A stretch of 20,541 nucleotides of DNA from a virus, in IMG/VR virus record IMGVR_UViG_3300025079_000036, positions 1 to 20,541 of that record. The stretch is one strand, 5' to 3'. Position numbers and translations under genes: made by a program. Positions 1,886 through 19,882 of this stretch are shown one piece after another. Position 1 is the stretch's first letter, and every line of letters starts with the position of its first letter. Below the pieces are notes generated by a model. That model was not told the origin of the DNA. It worked only from the letters and a program-made list of their open reading frames with translations, and did not search any database.

Positions 1886-1909
1886 GTACAAACTAGCTAG
1901 TACAAACTA
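1886..1909. repeat. 10-bp direct repeat pair around a perfect palindrome, upstream of the fibre gene
   Basis: GTACAAACTA occurs at 1886-1895 and again at 1900-1909 on the plus strand, 14 bp apart. The perfect 10-bp palindrome ACTAGCTAGT (1892-1901) spans the gap between them. The second copy includes the stop codon of the 1328-residue core gene (TAG on the minus strand, 1907-1909). It lies in the short gap before the fibre gene. It could be a protein-binding site or a relic of fibre-gene exchange; neither is shown. Confidence 0.5.
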
Positions 1910-4900
1910 TTGCGCCCAAGCCCTAGTGATTTGGTTAACATCATCTTTAAGGAACCAAAACCTAGCAAATGGAGCGTTTCTAGCTATTTGTTTTGCACCT
2001 TCTCCGTACTCTCCGTTAGCAAATTGATACATTCCACGGCCCACATCAGACGCCCAAGAAGGCCCAGCGCCACCAAGGCCCATTACAGCGTCTAGTGTGG
2101 AAGGCTCTTGTGGAAACTTAGGAGAAAGTATTCCACCAGTAATGTTTGGCCCACCAAGGGCTAATGAGGTATGCATACCAGTGTACATAAGATCTGAATA
2201 AAGAGCCATAACTCCACTCATATCAAAACTTCTTGCAAACTTGTCTTGTGCAGACATCTCATCCCAAACAAAGTCAGCAGTTCTTAACTTTAAAGAAAGA
2301 TAGGCAAGCCCTAAAGATGTAGCTATTCCTAAAGCTCTATTTTTAATTTGACCTTGAGCAAGAGAAGCAACGGTTTTGTTTACGTTAGCCAACGTATAGC
2401 TGTAGAATTGGAATGGAAGTCCCATTAGGCCGTTTTCAATACGAGCATAACCTTTGACCTTTGGGTCTTCAGTAAAGCCAAATTGCTTTGCAACTGTCAT
2501 TGGAAGATAGGCTACACCATCAGTAATGATTGGTTTGTCAGCAGGAGTTCCTGACATAATAGTGTTTAACACACCACTGTTTAAGGCAACTCTAAACTGA
2601 GATACAGTTTCTTCAGCTTCTCTAAATCGAATATCGTATTTCTTATTTGCTGCAAGCTTAATGCCTTCTTCTTTTTCATTACGCATATAAGCGTAGGCAA
2701 GTTCATCAATTCTTTGTTCATACTCAGTTATTGTTTCATCAATTTTTCTGCGATGAGTTGTGTGATGTAATTCATGCAGTAATATAAACTCAACATAATC
2801 ATCTGCTGAATCTATAAGGTCTGCGTTTTTAATTAACTGATTTCTATGTACATGAACTTCTTCTGAAATAGTTCCTTCTTTTAACAAATCATCAAGTCGT
2901 TTAATCATTTCATCTTTTGTTCTAGGGCTTGATTTAAAATTGTCATAAACGCTTTTTACTCTAATAGGGTCAACGTAAATTGTACTTGGAACACCGTCTG
3001 TATAATTCATGGCAATGCCAAGAGCATTTTCTAAATCTTTACTATCCATAATACTTCTTGCAACTTTAGGATCAGTAATAATCCTATCAACAAAAAACTC
3101 TTGGCTATATCTAGTTAACAGTTCTTTTTCAGTTGATTTAGATATTAGTTTTGCTTTTACTTTTTTGTATGTTTTCCGTGTTTCAGCAATAATCTTGTCT
3201 AAACTAATGTTTGTCCACTCTCTAGTGTTTGCCATGTAGAGATTGTTTGTTGATTTTTCCCAAGGAGATTTAGCAATTTTTGCAGCAATTTTTTGATCTA
3301 TCCCGTATCTAGCAAGCCATGTTTTTTCTTGTGGGGTAATACTTTTGTATCGAATAGAATAATCAATAATAGTGTGAGCGTCTATTATTCCAGACAACTG
3401 TTTTGCAATAGTTGTCATAGGAGCTAGTCCGTTAAGAATGTAGAAAGCATTTCTTGCGCTAGTTAATAACTCATTAGAATTAACATTGTTACTTAAATCT
3501 TCTACTAATCTCATATGAGCAGTACCACGAAGAATGTCTATAGCCTCACCAGCAAGCCTAACTTCGTCTACAGTCATGTTGACCATATTCTTATCCATTA
3601 AAGCCTGTGTGCCTTTAACAACATTATCTAAGTCATACTCCATTACAATTCTTCCAAAGTCAGGAAGAGCAGCAAGACCAGCAGAACCCATGTAGCTAAA
3701 CTGAGCAGCTTCTTTTAATACAAAAGCAATCTTCTGATTAATAGCTTCAGGATTTCTAAGAACAGAACCAGAAACTCTATCATACATATGCATATAATCT
3801 CTACGCATTTTGTTAATATCTTCTTGGGTAAATTGCTTTCGTATCATCTCCATTTCCATGTCAAAGATAACGCCATCTACATCTTTACCAAATGCTTTTC
3901 TGTATTCGTATCGTGGTTCAATCCTTGCTGAGTAAGTTTGCATTGCAGCTAATGGGTCTGTAATAATAAATTTAGTAACAAGCTTGTTAGGTATATCTAC
4001 TTGCCTGTGTCTAAAGTGCTTAGATCTTCCGTATCCAAATCCTATATTATCTATATTTAAAGGATCTTCTTCGTCTAAGATTTTTGAAATAGTTTTGTTA
4101 ACTCTTTTTTCTAAATTCTCTGGTGTAACTGAAAGTTTAATTCTTTCAAATTCTAAAGTTCTTGGATTTTTTTCGTATATAAATGGGTTTGCTTGATACC
4201 AGTTGTACAAAATATCATAAAATTCTTTTCTATTTTTTTTGATAGCTGAACTATCCCAGAAACGAGGAAAGAATATATCTTGATCCTCAGTTCTTTCTGA
4301 TTTTAAGTTAGAGTCTTCTAATGCAATAAGGGTTGTTCTGTCTTCTGCAATGTCATTGCTAAGTTTGGTTAACCTATCATCAATTAACCTAGACTCATAT
4401 GCGCCTCTTCCAGTTCTCCGCATACGAGCATTTTCACGTTGAGTTTTTAAAGAAGAAATCTCTGCTTCAAGTTGATCGATCTTAGCTTTGATGCCTTTTG
4501 CATTTCCAATTAAACCTACTTCAGATAGTTTTGTTTCTGCATCTAAAAAATAAGCGTTCATTACCTCAATGGCTTTAGCTTCATTTGGAGTTAAATCTGT
4601 ATCATCTTTAATTCTTTTTTCGCTTACTCTTCCTAACCATTTTTTATAAGTATCGTCACTCCCCATTGCCCTTCTTCCAAGATCACCAAAGTTTATGTCT
4701 AACTTTGTTGCAAGAGGCGCGTTTGTGTCAGAAGCCCATAGCCTTATAAACTGATCATGTGCAGCTACCCATTTTCCATTAGCAACAGCAGATCTTTGAT
4801 AAACAGAATTTGGAGTAGCAATTCCAAGCGAGTTAAGAGCTAGAGCAACGCCGCTGTCACTAAAACTTTTGACCATCATTTCTTTAACAAAACTAGGATA

Positions 4901-5893
4901 TTTAGATTGCAACACTCTTTTCATAGGCGTTGAGACTGCTTTGTAGAAAACACTATTAGTAAAAGCAGATTCTAAAATTTTATATGGGTCAGCTAAATCT
5001 ACCCCCATATCTTCTAGTTCCCTAAAGGCTTTTTCATTTCTATAAGATCTAGCCATACCTCTTAATTCTTCGGCTCTTTCTAAAAGATTTGCAGCTTCTG
5101 GCCTACCTCGCCCTTGAATAGAATTAGCTTCTTGCTCAGTCCTAGACGCAGAGTCTTCAAAAGATTTTATTGTTGTATTTAAATCATCATCACTTTTATC
5201 AAATAAAGGTCTTTCTGATCTTTGAGGCAGATTAATCATCTGTTCTCTAGTAACGCCTTCAAGGTTATCAATCCTAGAAAGCATAGTCATTTCTTCTTGT
5301 ATTGCGATTTCTGTTCTAGCTTGCGCTCTTGCTTTAGCAGTCATTGGTGCGCCAAATGCTGCGCCAAACCCAGCCCCAAATATTCCAGCCATGCCAATAT
5401 TTATAGCACTTTCTTGAGCAGTCTGAAGAGCATCGAAGGGTTGAACTAATCCAGCCTCAATACCGCCTTGTAAAACAGCAGTACCAGCACCAACACGCAA
5501 TGCTGATCTACCTATTCCAATAGTAGGCCCACCAAAAGGAAGAGCAATAAGGTTTATTGGATCAAATATACCAGCAACTAATTGAGCGCCTAGCGAGGAT
5601 TGAGACAAGATCTCTCTTCTACTAGAGCTTTCATTAATAGTTCTTTTAAGTGATGCCATATGCAAAGGGTTAACAGCGCGACCCAATGTGGTAGCGTACA
5701 TTTCGTAGCCACGCATATCTTCCATTGCGTTATAACCAGATTCACGTTGCATACCAAACTCAAATGTCTGGCCTACTGTTTCAAACAAAGGATCAAGACT
5801 GTATCCTACAGACGCACTAACAGTTTTCCCAAAGCTAGGTTTTTCACTTACTATGTCTCTTTCAAAAAATAATGGATTGTATTTATTTTCCAT
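1907..5893 (-). CDS. Giant internal virion protein (gp16-like, 1328 aa) with HELHH metalloprotease-like motif
   Basis: Probable largest protein of the internal core, ejected into the host ahead of DNA. The length (1328 aa) is close to T7 gp16 (about 1318 aa), and it is the last gene before the fibre, as gp16 is. Residues 102-184 are Gly/Ala-rich and hydrophobic (IFDPINLIALPFGGP...), suited to membrane contact. Residues about 465-535 look like a charged coiled coil. Residues 1040-1044 are HELHH, an HExxH zinc-binding signature, followed by E1064 in RIDELAYAY at a spacing typical of a third zinc ligand. The C-terminal ~150 residues (GLMGLPFQFYSY..., ending NAPFARFWFL) resemble the C-termini I know from podoviral core or large polyvalent proteins. 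No N-terminal lytic transglycosylase motif is evident. A GGAG ribosome site lies 9 nt before the ATG. The core role rests on size and position; protease activity is inferred. Confidence 0.75.
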   Translation of the reverse strand: MENKYNPLFFERDIVSEKPSFGKTVSASVGYSLDPLFETVGQTFEFGMQRESGYNAMEDMRGYEMYATTLGRAVNPLHMASLKRTINESSSRREILSQSSLGAQLVAGIFDPINLIALPFGGPTIGIGRSALRVGAGTAVLQGGIEAGLVQPFDALQTAQESAINIGMAGIFGAGFGAAFGAPMTAKARAQARTEIAIQEEMTMLSRIDNLEGVTREQMINLPQRSERPLFDKSDDDLNTTIKSFEDSASRTEQEANSIQGRGRPEAANLLERAEELRGMARSYRNEKAFRELEDMGVDLADPYKILESAFTNSVFYKAVSTPMKRVLQSKYPSFVKEMMVKSFSDSGVALALNSLGIATPNSVYQRSAVANGKWVAAHDQFIRLWASDTNAPLATKLDINFGDLGRRAMGSDDTYKKWLGRVSEKRIKDDTDLTPNEAKAIEVMNAYFLDAETKLSEVGLIGNAKGIKAKIDQLEAEISSLKTQRENARMRRTGRGAYESRLIDDRLTKLSNDIAEDRTTLIALEDSNLKSERTEDQDIFFPRFWDSSAIKKNRKEFYDILYNWYQANPFIYEKNPRTLEFERIKLSVTPENLEKRVNKTISKILDEEDPLNIDNIGFGYGRSKHFRHRQVDIPNKLVTKFIITDPLAAMQTYSARIEPRYEYRKAFGKDVDGVIFDMEMEMIRKQFTQEDINKMRRDYMHMYDRVSGSVLRNPEAINQKIAFVLKEAAQFSYMGSAGLAALPDFGRIVMEYDLDNVVKGTQALMDKNMVNMTVDEVRLAGEAIDILRGTAHMRLVEDLSNNVNSNELLTSARNAFYILNGLAPMTTIAKQLSGIIDAHTIIDYSIRYKSITPQEKTWLARYGIDQKIAAKIAKSPWEKSTNNLYMANTREWTNISLDKIIAETRKTYKKVKAKLISKSTEKELLTRYSQEFFVDRIITDPKVARSIMDSKDLENALGIAMNYTDGVPSTIYVDPIRVKSVYDNFKSSPRTKDEMIKRLDDLLKEGTISEEVHVHRNQLIKNADLIDSADDYVEFILLHELHHTTHRRKIDETITEYEQRIDELAYAYMRNEKEEGIKLAANKKYDIRFREAEETVSQFRVALNSGVLNTIMSGTPADKPIITDGVAYLPMTVAKQFGFTEDPKVKGYARIENGLMGLPFQFYSYTLANVNKTVASLAQGQIKNRALGIATSLGLAYLSLKLRTADFVWDEMSAQDKFARSFDMSGVMALYSDLMYTGMHTSLALGGPNITGGILSPKFPQEPSTLDAVMGLGGAGPSWASDVGRGMYQFANGEYGEGAKQIARNAPFARFWFLKDDVNQITRAWAQ
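2732..2776 (-). other. HExxH metalloprotease-like zinc site inside the giant core protein
   Basis: Residues 1040-1044 of the 1328-aa protein read HELHH, preceded by the hydrophobic FILL as in many zincin helices. H1040, E1041 and H1044 would be two zinc ligands and the catalytic glutamate. E1064, 20 residues after H1044, is the natural third ligand (gluzincin pattern) and lies just beyond this span. The motif and spacing are seen; zinc binding and proteolysis are inferred. Confidence 0.6.
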
Positions 5894-5896
5894 TAA

Positions 5897-8800
5897 TTAA
5901 AACTCCAACATAATATTTTGAGTTGCCTCTGGGTTAGCTGGTGAAAAAAGTCCTCCAGAAGTTGTCATAGGCCCATGCCGCAATGCTGATGTTGGTAAAG
6001 ATCTAGGGCCACCAAAGGCGTCTAATGCAGCAGACTGTATCCTATGATTTCTTATGTTGTTTCTATTATTAACAGCAGTTGTAAATTCTGAATCAGTATT
6101 AGAAATAATTAAAGGCGCTCTGTAAGATTTTCTTTCGCTAGGCGGCCCTACTTTATTATCAACCATTGTATAAACCTGTCTGTAACCGCCCTCACTCATG
6201 GGAGCTACTCGAAAAACAGCATATTGAATATTGTTCCCAGTTCTTAATCCAATAGGCTTTAAGAAAACATTACCCATTTGACTGTCATCACCAAATACAG
6301 CACCCAAAACATTTTGAACTGGCCCAAGTAGTGCTGGGGAAATAGATAATTTATTGCTATCGGCTAATACTGAAGTAGATTTAGTCAATCCAAGTACAAC
6401 ATTACCACCAAGAGGGTCAGCTAATGTGACTTGTTTTATAATGTGTGCTTTAAGCAAATCTTCATTGCCAGCCCCAGAAGCATAGCTAAGAGGTGCGCTT
6501 GTATTTTCAGACCCGCCATTTCCAAAAACAATACCTCCACCACTAGGGTACTTCATTAACATTTGTTCTTCTAGTATTCCCCTTATTTCCCCTGATGATT
6601 TGTCTTGGTTTAAAGGTAGAGACATTATATTTAGTGTTAACGCTTTTAGTCCATTAACTGCTGAAAGTGGCATATCTGTAATGTTATCAAGAGTAAGAAC
6701 AAACTCATCTAAAGTAGAATCAAGCCTTGTTTCTACTCTCTTTTTAAAGTTGTCATTATTTTTGTATGTATTTCTTAAAGCAAAAACTTCTGCTAAACTT
6801 CCCTCATTATTTACATCTATAAGACCAGTTCTTCCAGCATCTAAAAGATATTTGAGAGTTGAGTATTCTTCTGAATCAAGAGATTCCATCATTAAAGAGT
6901 TCATAGTAACTCCCTGATGTTCATATTCAGCAAAGTTTGCAAAATGAGATAAGAGTGCTTTAGGGCTATTTCCTTTAAATTGACCGCCAGCTAAGTTTGT
7001 TAATGCCTGAGCCAAAGATTGAGGCATTGTACTTTGTTGAGAAATAAAAGTTAAAAGATTACGGCCATCTTCAGAGTTAAAAACTTCTGGGTCATTAAAC
7101 AACTGGCCCATTGTTCTACCATTAAGTATCTCAGGAAATTGTTCTGCTATTGCAACATCAAGAAACGCTTGGTCTTTTTTTGATTTTGGGTCTAAATTGC
7201 CAGAATTTAATCTTTTATAAAGTAAAACTTTATCTGCTCTAGCATTTACTTGACTTTGGATTTCTGTTTCATCGGCCGCCACGCGAGATCTAATTCCACT
7301 TACTTTACTAATTGCTGTGTCTATTTCTGTCCTAGAAGTTAAAACACTTAATATTTGATTGCCTGTTCTTATTACTTCTTCATTAAATTTAACACCATCT
7401 GCTCCTATTTTCTTTTTTCCAAATGTATCAATGTAAACTTCTAAGTCACCAAGCTCTTGAGAATTAGAACCTTCAGAAAAATTAACTATATAAGATGAAG
7501 CACTTTCAGTTCTGACTCGAATTTTATTAACTCTAGCTTGATCTGAAGTTATAGCGTCAGCCTCAAGCGCTTTGTCTATCAAACCAACCATATACTCAGA
7601 TGATTGTGTACCTGTTGTACTATCAGTATCTCCACCACTATTTGCGTGTTGAAAAAATAAAGCTAAATCTTCATTAAGACTATTTTCTATTTCGACTTTG
7701 TTTTTTCTTTCTAAAACATTGTTAACACCACCGCCAATAGTTGAGTTAATAAATTGTTTAAATTCTGAAGAACCATTCTTAGCGATCAGTCCTTCTTTTT
7801 TAAGAGCATTTACAAATTGTTTTTGGCTTTGAGTTAATAAGTCGTAACTGTCATCTGCGTCTTGTCCACCATTTAACACTATAGCAAGAGCTTCTGGATT
7901 TCCTAACGATGCAGCATTAAGAAGTGGAGTATATAATGCTTTTGTTTTTATGCTAAATATATCTGCTGATGCTTGTACTGCTGTATAAATGTTATCTGTG
8001 TCTTGAAGAGCAGCTTCTTTTACTTGCGATATTCGAGACTCTACTTCTTCAGCAATAAGTTTTGTAGATGCTCTAATCTCTGAAGCACTTAACGAAGATA
8101 GCGAGTCACTAGAAAATAATTGTGCATCAATTTCTATTCCATCAAAATCTAATCTGTATCTCTCATAGTTTGTTCTAGCTTGCTCAAGAGCTAAAACATC
8201 TTCATCATTTTGGACAGCATCAAATGGTTGAGATGCTGTTACTGCATATGAATATGCTGAAGCAACATCTGCTCCAGCAAGTTTTACAATTCTTTTTATT
8301 TCTTTTTTTTCAAAGTTGCTCAAGCCAGCCATATTTGTTCCGCTGCTACTAATCGCAAGTTTTATTTTTTTTCTTTCTGTATCATCTTCTGCATATCCAA
8401 GAAGAAATTGTATTGAGCCTTTAGCTGCTTGTAGACTTGCAGCCCTAAAACTAGAGTCAACAAATCCTTGTAGCTTTAATCCAGAATCTTCTCCATCTTG
8501 AGAAACAGTACGTGCTTTTTCAAGAAGCTCATCAATAACTCCATTAGGAGAGCCTAAAGCAGCTTGTTCAAAAATGTTTTCTTTAAGTAAGATTAATCCT
8601 TGGTCTATAGAGTTGGAGGCATTTTGTCTTTCTCTAGTAGCAACATTTGCTCGAATGTTTAATTGTGTGTCAGCAAGCCATTCAGCACCTTTTTCTTCAA
8701 CGTATGCTTTGTATTTACCTATTGATCCCTCAGACATTTTAGCAATGTAATCTTGCATTACTTCAGAATAAGAATTTGTATCAAGAGGATACTTTAAACT

Positions 8801-9160
8801 AATTTCTTTAGCTTTAAATTTTATTTCTTGATTTATAGAATTTTCATATCTTTGATCAACAACTCTTTGATATGCGTTAGCTGCTATAGAACCAAATCCA
8901 GATGGCGGTTCTGGTGGTGCGTTAAAGTTTACAGTATTGCCAGTTTTTGGATCTATTGTTCTAAAGGATCTAAGTCTAATTGACTTTGCAAAATCTTCAC
9001 CTTTTGTTTCTGCTGCTTGTGACGCTTGTTGGAAAGCTATTCTTTGTATCCCAGATGCAGCATTGCCTATAGCATCACCGACTGACCTTGCGCCAACGTC
9101 TGTTCTTACAACTCCAACTGGCTTGTTGAAGACTGTAGTTTTTTGTCTAATAACAGCCAT
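5897..9160 (-). CDS. Internal virion core protein (gp15-like by position, 1087 aa)
   Basis: Probable internal-core or ejection protein. It occupies the T7 gp15 position, between the 148-aa gp14-like gene and the 1328-aa gp16-like gene, and is larger than T7 gp15 (747 aa). The sequence is largely helical, rich in Ala, Glu, Lys and Asn, with no signal peptide. The N-terminus (MAVIRQKTTVFNKPVGVVRT) is basic, followed by an Ala-rich stretch ending near residue 60. The C-terminal ~100 residues turn Gly/Pro/Ser-rich (SGGLFSPANP). I see no catalytic motif. The start codon overlaps the previous stop in a TAATG at 9160, and the next gene begins after 3 nt. The DNA is noticeably more AT-rich than the head genes. 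The assignment depends on order and composition rather than a recognised domain. Confidence 0.65.
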   Translation of the reverse strand: MAVIRQKTTVFNKPVGVVRTDVGARSVGDAIGNAASGIQRIAFQQASQAAETKGEDFAKSIRLRSFRTIDPKTGNTVNFNAPPEPPSGFGSIAANAYQRVVDQRYENSINQEIKFKAKEISLKYPLDTNSYSEVMQDYIAKMSEGSIGKYKAYVEEKGAEWLADTQLNIRANVATRERQNASNSIDQGLILLKENIFEQAALGSPNGVIDELLEKARTVSQDGEDSGLKLQGFVDSSFRAASLQAAKGSIQFLLGYAEDDTERKKIKLAISSSGTNMAGLSNFEKKEIKRIVKLAGADVASAYSYAVTASQPFDAVQNDEDVLALEQARTNYERYRLDFDGIEIDAQLFSSDSLSSLSASEIRASTKLIAEEVESRISQVKEAALQDTDNIYTAVQASADIFSIKTKALYTPLLNAASLGNPEALAIVLNGGQDADDSYDLLTQSQKQFVNALKKEGLIAKNGSSEFKQFINSTIGGGVNNVLERKNKVEIENSLNEDLALFFQHANSGGDTDSTTGTQSSEYMVGLIDKALEADAITSDQARVNKIRVRTESASSYIVNFSEGSNSQELGDLEVYIDTFGKKKIGADGVKFNEEVIRTGNQILSVLTSRTEIDTAISKVSGIRSRVAADETEIQSQVNARADKVLLYKRLNSGNLDPKSKKDQAFLDVAIAEQFPEILNGRTMGQLFNDPEVFNSEDGRNLLTFISQQSTMPQSLAQALTNLAGGQFKGNSPKALLSHFANFAEYEHQGVTMNSLMMESLDSEEYSTLKYLLDAGRTGLIDVNNEGSLAEVFALRNTYKNNDNFKKRVETRLDSTLDEFVLTLDNITDMPLSAVNGLKALTLNIMSLPLNQDKSSGEIRGILEEQMLMKYPSGGGIVFGNGGSENTSAPLSYASGAGNEDLLKAHIIKQVTLADPLGGNVVLGLTKSTSVLADSNKLSISPALLGPVQNVLGAVFGDDSQMGNVFLKPIGLRTGNNIQYAVFRVAPMSEGGYRQVYTMVDNKVGPPSERKSYRAPLIISNTDSEFTTAVNNRNNIRNHRIQSAALDAFGGPRSLPTSALRHGPMTTSGGLFSPANPEATQNIMLEF

Positions 9161-9606
9161 TATACCACACTTTCATATTGCATTACGCCCTGACCAACAG
9201 TTCCAGCAGCACTGATTGTAGAAGCAAGCAATGTGTTTCTACCCCTACGTCTTTCAGTGCTTGCAGCTATGTCTGATTTTCTTGACTGAATAGCTGTTTG
9301 CATTTGAGCGCGTCCAATGTCCTCACCGAATACTTCTTTTTGCCTTTTAAGAAATGCTTGTACGCTGTTATCGCTTTGCGCTCTGCCCATTGCAGCAAAC
9401 GCAGCTATGTTAGATGCAGTAGCTAAATCATAATCAGCCCTTCTTGCTTCGGACTCCTGCATTGCTTGCACTTTATTTAGTTTCTTATCTGTTTCAATGT
9501 TAAAAGCGTTTAGGTCTGATGATTTTTTTGCACCAATTCCACCTAGTATTTGACCACCAGCACTTACGGCTGTAGCTGCTATCATTAATGCTACTGGTAT
9601 TGCCAT
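9160..9606 (-). CDS. Internal virion protein B-like (gp14-like, 148 aa)
   Basis: Small core protein at the T7 gp14 position, directly after tail tubular protein B and before the two giant core proteins. Residues 1-25 (MAIPVALMIAATAVSAGGQI...) form a hydrophobic Ala/Gly segment. The middle is charged and helical (about 40-115, with AFAAMGRAQSDNSVQAFLKR), and residues about 123-142 are again small and hydrophobic. In T7, gp14 is ejected and inserts in the outer membrane, which would suit these ends. T7 gp14 is 196 aa, so this one is short. It is joined to both neighbours by TAATG overlaps (9606 and 9160), so translation is likely coupled. Order and composition support the call; no sequence signature proves it. 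Confidence 0.7.
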   Translation of the reverse strand: MAIPVALMIAATAVSAGGQILGGIGAKKSSDLNAFNIETDKKLNKVQAMQESEARRADYDLATASNIAAFAAMGRAQSDNSVQAFLKRQKEVFGEDIGRAQMQTAIQSRKSDIAASTERRRGRNTLLASTISAAGTVGQGVMQYESVV

Positions 9607-19425: not shown

Positions 19426-19613
19426 GTCTCGTTCATGAGAAGAGGAGTAAGAAGGGATCGTTTCTTCATTCCCTTACGCCGTACATCTCTAAGCTGGGAG
19501 GATGTACTCCCGCTTACTGAGGAACTCGGTTCCATTTTTAGCGAAGGAAGAGGATCATATGTCTTCTTCATTGCTTGATAGCGGCTTTCCGCGCTAGATC
19601 CACCAAAACACAT
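19422..19613 (-). CDS. Small MCFG-type protein, second copy (63 aa)
   Basis: Begins MCFGGSSAESRYQAMKK, has a low-complexity Ser/Thr middle (EPSSSVSGSTSSQ) and ends VRRKGMKKRSLLTPLLMNET. It shares the MCFG.S opening and an RRK...RSL basic block with the 68-aa protein before the portal (17132-17338), although the middles differ. Cys2 follows the initiator Met. It is joined by TAATG to the gene above and by ATGA to the one below. It may be a second small ejected protein in the style of T7 gp6.7 or gp7.3, which is inference. Confidence 0.6.
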   Translation of the reverse strand: MCFGGSSAESRYQAMKKTYDPLPSLKMEPSSSVSGSTSSQLRDVRRKGMKKRSLLTPLLMNET

Positions 19614-19882
19614 TACGACTTCTTATGCCTCCTTGCAAAGTTACGGGCAGCTTCAATAGAGCCAAAGCCCCACTTCTGTAATGCTAATGCTTTACGGGTA
19701 GGCTCACCGTTCGGTTTCTTCATCGGCCCCCTCATTCCAGCAAACCTTGCAGCGAAAGAAATACGTCGGGGATTAGTTCCCTTACTAACTGCTGGCTTAA
19801 GGTTAGCGCCCTCGGTTCTCTTAAAGTGAGCGCGACCAGCAGGAGTTAAACCACCAGTAGGACTTTTGTGTTCGCTACGCAT
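19613..19882 (-). CDS. DUF6321-like conserved phage protein (89 aa)
   Basis: Carries the pattern GGLTPAGRAHFKRTEGANLK (residues 10-29), then RRISFAARFAGMRGPMKKPN and GEPTRKALALQKWGF. This is the set of conserved blocks I know as DUF6321, a small family widespread in phages. It is basic, soluble and rich in Gly and Arg. The start overlaps the previous stop by 8 nt and the stop is part of TAATG with the MCFG gene. Its role is unknown; the position beside terminase genes suggests packaging or a virion-associated role. Confidence 0.75.
   Translation of the reverse strand: MRSEHKSPTGGLTPAGRAHFKRTEGANLKPAVSKGTNPRRISFAARFAGMRGPMKKPNGEPTRKALALQKWGFGSIEAARNFARRHKKS

Follow-up and report, generated by a model that had tools for sequence, protein, structure and literature searches.

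A zincin-like insert at a fixed site of the gp16-type ejection protein in a marine T7-like phage fragment

The gp16-type ejection protein encoded by a 20.5-kb phage fragment carries a zincin-like insert (residues ~896-1093) that occupies one fixed site in the protein, is cleanly present or absent in relatives, keeps an invariant catalytic set under deep divergence and is confidently predicted to adopt a compact fold. We favour, with a probability of roughly 0.6, the reading that this insert is an accessory metallopeptidase of the zincin type plugged into gp16, which would cut one or more host proteins early on the cytoplasmic side. The fragment, hereafter the window, is the whole stretch of DNA that was analysed (20,541 nt; IMG/VR virus record IMGVR_UViG_3300025079_000036).

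A gp16-type protein with an optional insert

Analysis of ORFs together with Pfam and PHROG searches revealed that the minus strand of the window carries a podovirus structural operon, extending from the terminase through the core proteins. Its genes encode a head-tail connector (PF12236, E=5e-95), a T7-type capsid assembly protein (PF05396), a capsid protein (PF19821), two tail tubular proteins, a gp14-type internal virion protein (9160..9606; PHROG_418, E=9e-6), a core protein in the gp15 position (5897..9160) and, following these gp14- and gp15-type genes in operon order, the 1328-aa gp16-type internal virion protein (1907..5893). The protein between the gp14- and gp16-type genes has 1087 aa and no informative family match in Pfam or PHROG searches; T7 gp15 has 747 aa. 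Upstream of the terminase, a small ORF (19613-19882) matches DUF6321 (PF19846, E=6e-24).

The 1328-aa protein matched PHROG_342 ('internal virion protein with endolysin domain') with E=3.4e-34, and hhalign aligned it to T7 gp16 with E=8e-7 and 4e-10. By profile match and gene order it is a T7-gp16-type ejection protein, as the sequence-only reading had proposed, and it has the gene position and size class of T7 gp16 (internal virion protein D; PHROG_342), with homologous blocks in both. Unlike T7 gp16, which carries a transglycosylase at its N terminus and lacks a zincin insert, the window protein appears to be of gp16 type but to lack the N-terminal lytic transglycosylase, because its PHROG_342 match begins at profile position 216; no Pfam match to such a domain was found either, and the absence noted in the earlier reading thus stands. 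An N-terminal transglycosylase is a phage-specific rather than a universal feature of gp16-type proteins (PMC8954989). Going by gp16 homology, the protein would be injected with the DNA, and the insert would be packaged in the internal core and ejected with gp16.

The terminases of the window and of Pelagibacter phage EXVC031P Hodr share 65% identity, and the gp16-type protein of Hodr (WDQ27578.1) is the sole isolate match of the window gp16, with about 26% identity. In terms of sequence relationship, the fragment is that of a marine, T7-like phage related to Hodr. Further relatives were reached through the terminase and Hodr, a prior P0001 scan of IMG/VR having given nothing.

Comparison of 20 terminase-linked relatives covering the site revealed that the gp16 sequence is conserved to about residue 895 and resumes from about residue 1094. 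Between these blocks 11 of the 20 carry 126-201 residues with an HExxH, and in the remaining nine there is no insert and the blocks are joined in frame. Most relatives have an insert of 126-140 aa; the window has the long form, encoded on the minus strand at 2615..3208, preceded by the gp16 core aligned to T7 gp16 (3209..5893) and followed by a core block starting FR.ALNSGVLNT (1910..2614), which is defined by the relatives and by a weak T7 match. In a gp16-core tree of 57 rows the presence/absence label needs three changes, the exact events being unsure on its long branches, and one relative with the insert (L096) and one without (L097) are sisters. A profile search of L097, L100 and L107-L114 detected no copy of the domain. 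These comparisons indicate that the insert is a discrete and clearly optional module at one fixed gp16 site. Gain and loss at a single site that leaves gp16 undisturbed would make it accessory cargo and no part of the DNA channel.

The insert DNA (window 2597-3229) has a G+C content of 31%, against 38% for the rest of the gene, and relatives show a mean difference of about 4 points. None of the 50,697 records searched was a cultured phage with an active insert, and GTDB genomes gave one short match only, in a metagenome-assembled genome.

The active-site motif and the predicted fold

The sequence-only reading had placed an HELHH, preceded by FILL, at residues 1040-1044 and a glutamate, E1064, 20 residues past H1044; all of these are present as described, the HELHH being encoded by minus-strand bases 2776-2762 (feature 2762..2776). 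H1040 and H1044 are predicted zinc ligands and E1041 the predicted general base. The gluzincin pattern HExxH...E that it had recognized holds for the HExxH and for a downstream glutamate, since HExxH followed by E-x-x-[IM]-[ND]-x-x-A was found in all 82 insert-bearing relatives (different proteins), a set gathered partly with domain-derived patterns, one of two of which overlapped the HExxH region and so favoured intact copies. Its third residue, however, was off by five. Alignment of 48 diverse copies (mean identity 28%) revealed that, beyond an N/W anchor, only H1040, E1041, H1044, E1059 and A1066 are invariant, the last an alanine of the Glu helix (2696..2698), whereas the position of E1064 (2702..2704) is occupied by D in 24 rows, E in 7, N in 6, Q in 4, R and K in 3 each and G in 1. 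Because only E1059 (2717..2719), 15 residues after H1044 in the motif YE..I[ND]..A, is invariant in the 48 rows, E1064 was dropped and E1059 is preferred as the likely third zinc ligand; the span flagged earlier (2732-2776, residues 1040-1054) therefore misses it. All four catalytic positions use both synonymous codons of His or Glu across relatives, which argues that these residues are held by selection. In the favoured metallopeptidase reading, residues ~896-1093 would form a self-contained gluzincin-like domain, with Zn2+ bound by H1040, H1044 and E1059 and the water activated by E1041.

Chance was considered as a source of the motif and rejected on the basis of the conservation in 82/82 relatives and a shuffle test. 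By composition, 0.010 HExxH motifs are expected in a 1328-aa protein, and of 20,000 shuffles 1.0% contained an HExxH, none of them with E..[IVLM][ND]..A within the 45 residues after it. T7 gp16 has a single HExxH, at residue 559, which its close relatives lack, and since that motif is unconserved the motif alone is insufficient as evidence. The true site is preceded in one long-form clade (L142, L144, L148, L152, L155, L156 and others) by a further HExxH, HEYVH, which looks coincidental.

AlphaFold modelling of a 140-aa short form (L163) gave a pLDDT of 86.8 and a pTM of 0.83, with strands at 43-46 and 51-54, a helix at 87-103 bearing the HExxH (97-101) and a helix at 112-139 bearing E116; the core of the window form was modelled with a pLDDT near 90. 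The insert is thus confidently predicted to be a small compact alpha/beta domain with a zincin-like order of elements, the order in the L163 model being the same as in the zincin MPTase core of polyvalent proteins (PMC5512222).

Foldseek comparison of the window model retrieved nothing useful from the PDB and, among viral proteins, only a single weak match (E=4e-3), to a phage protein of 1325 aa. With the short form, the first two PDB chains were selecase (E=2.8) and AQ_1354 (E=3.7), both of them zinc enzymes, a minigluzincin and a YbeY-like protein respectively; neither match was significant, and no significant PDB match was obtained by sequence or fold.

Place in the ejection protein and variant copies

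By hhalign, window residues 66-194 correspond to T7 290-415 (membrane region I), 639-872 to T7 788-1038 (the cytoplasmic gp16-C) and, weakly (E=0.012), 1123-1256 to T7 1079-1205 (membrane region II). The composite model of T7 gp16 assigns residues 243-410 and 1119-1290 to the membrane and 411-1118 to the cytoplasm (PMC8954989). Taken together, the alignment and the model place the insert where the cytoplasmic part ends, immediately ahead of the second membrane region, a placement that depends on the T7 composite model and on the weak alignment of the last block. The insert would therefore probably act on the cytoplasmic or inner-membrane side of the host rather than on the outer envelope. Lodged between gp16-C and the second membrane region, on the cytoplasmic side of the host inner membrane, it would most likely cleave at least one host protein at the very start of infection.

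The same position, where gp16-C meets the second membrane region, would suit a self-processing protease that cuts gp16 (or gp15/gp14) in cis or in trans, at head maturation or after ejection, for example freeing gp16-C from the membrane segments; autoprocessing has been proposed by Iyer et al. for polyvalent-protein zincins such as that of P1 DdrB (PMC5512222). However, the zincin-bearing N4 vRNAP is packaged uncut (PMC5512222), and relatives without the domain keep the same flanks, which implies no obligate cut. We regard self-processing as unlikely, though as the main rival to cleavage of a host protein.

The sequence-only reading had hinted at the protease standing in for the transglycosylase, and the lack of that domain in the window gp16, like the lack of an SLT match in the Hodr genome, would fit an envelope enzyme that opens peptidoglycan or periplasmic proteins in its place. 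Three relatives, L198 (3017-8017), L154 (3305-8284) and L169 (3275-8149), encode gp16-type proteins of 1559-1667 aa in which an extra N-terminal enzyme-like domain accompanies the insert. This domain is lysozyme-like in L198 and endolysin-like in L154, and the N-terminal enzymes used appear to be of two unrelated kinds. Substitution was rejected on the coexistence of both kinds of domain in one chain (L198, L154); the insert also sits at the opposite end of the protein, at a site that maps beside the cytoplasmic gp16-C. An envelope role is consequently the least likely of the alternatives, and improbable.

Profile searches located a copy of the domain in the gp16-type proteins of the Hodr clade (L002, Hodr itself, 26884-30627, and L003-L013) at residues ~266-388 (iE about 1e-9 to 1e-13), the copy of Hodr spanning ~266-377, and the view that this clade simply lacks the domain was rejected on finding it. 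In this copy the HExxH is replaced by KKE[IV], so that both zinc histidines are lost while the third glutamate is kept; it is probably a pseudo-enzyme conserved across the clade. By the T7 topology it would fall just after the first membrane region, again on the cytoplasmic side. Since the copy persists without either histidine, the fold can presumably serve without zinc.

Such persistence would fit a structural or binding domain with a metal site but no peptidase activity, whether another zinc hydrolase or a metal-stabilised scaffold, and the best fold matches, though insignificant, include YbeY-like zinc enzymes that are not peptidases. On the other hand, every copy that has the histidines also keeps the general-base glutamate of HExxH, a residue that would be superfluous in a purely structural site, and we judge this explanation to be somewhat less probable again than self-processing. 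In the L135-L139 clade (for example L135, 4049-8380, and L137-L139), a short-form copy with NKEIL occupies the usual gp16 site, and a full long-form copy (HELTH...ELRIDQNA) is nested inside this degenerate one, which points to an active copy being retained as another degenerates.

Relation to known zincins and implications

None of the cut-offs of known families was reached by the insert family in Pfam and profile comparisons. A Pfam match to the putative metallopeptidase DUF4344 covers residues ~1018-1095 around HELHH with E=0.014, but membership was rejected as its 15.6 bits fall below the gathering cut-off of 29.6. The MPTases of polyvalent proteins likewise have an HExxH helix followed by a Glu helix in a protein co-injected with DNA (Iyer et al. 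2017, PMC5512222). Membership of MPTase-PolyVal (PF18818) was nevertheless rejected, the family being absent from the Pfam matches of 12 members at E<=10, and the window chain has few other effector domains; a genome search for PF18818 gave no match anywhere, and its controls were equally silent. The C1 domain of phage N4 vRNAP is also an HExxH domain in an ejected podovirus protein (PMC12633501), but hhalign with the insert family aligns only short stretches of 14-37 columns at a probability of 7-28%, and membership was rejected. The minigluzincins selecase and projannalysin share the minimal HExxH...E scaffold and are among the best, insignificant, fold or sequence matches (E=2.8 and 3.9), although they are free-standing proteins. 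The Hodr protein combines a homologous gp16 with a detectable copy of the same domain, which differs in its site and in the loss of both histidines.

Among the domains of injected polyvalent proteins, zincins are the most frequent (PMC5512222), and the term 'gp16' is absent from the text of that paper. When the open literature was searched for zincins in proteins of gp16 type, nothing beyond the polyvalent-protein and N4 papers came up. That ejected phage proteins can carry zincins is already known, and the insert family and its placement in gp16 appear to be new.

A bolder and much more tentative extension of the favoured reading is that these inserts are swappable proteases coupled to DNA entry, in which a minigluzincin-like module docked where the DNA channel opens into the cytoplasm would cut host defence or DNA-bound proteins and, keeping pace with the host, would be exchanged, nested, relocated or silenced. 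Ejection proteins have been viewed mainly as the plumbing of DNA entry. A fixed gp16 slot that accepts and drops a protease module would make them carriers of enzymes acting before phage gene expression, here in a group of phages with a relative whose hosts are abundant ocean bacteria, and the natural pair with and without the insert (L096/L097), together with the histidine-less versions, offers ready comparisons for the role of zincins in ejected proteins.
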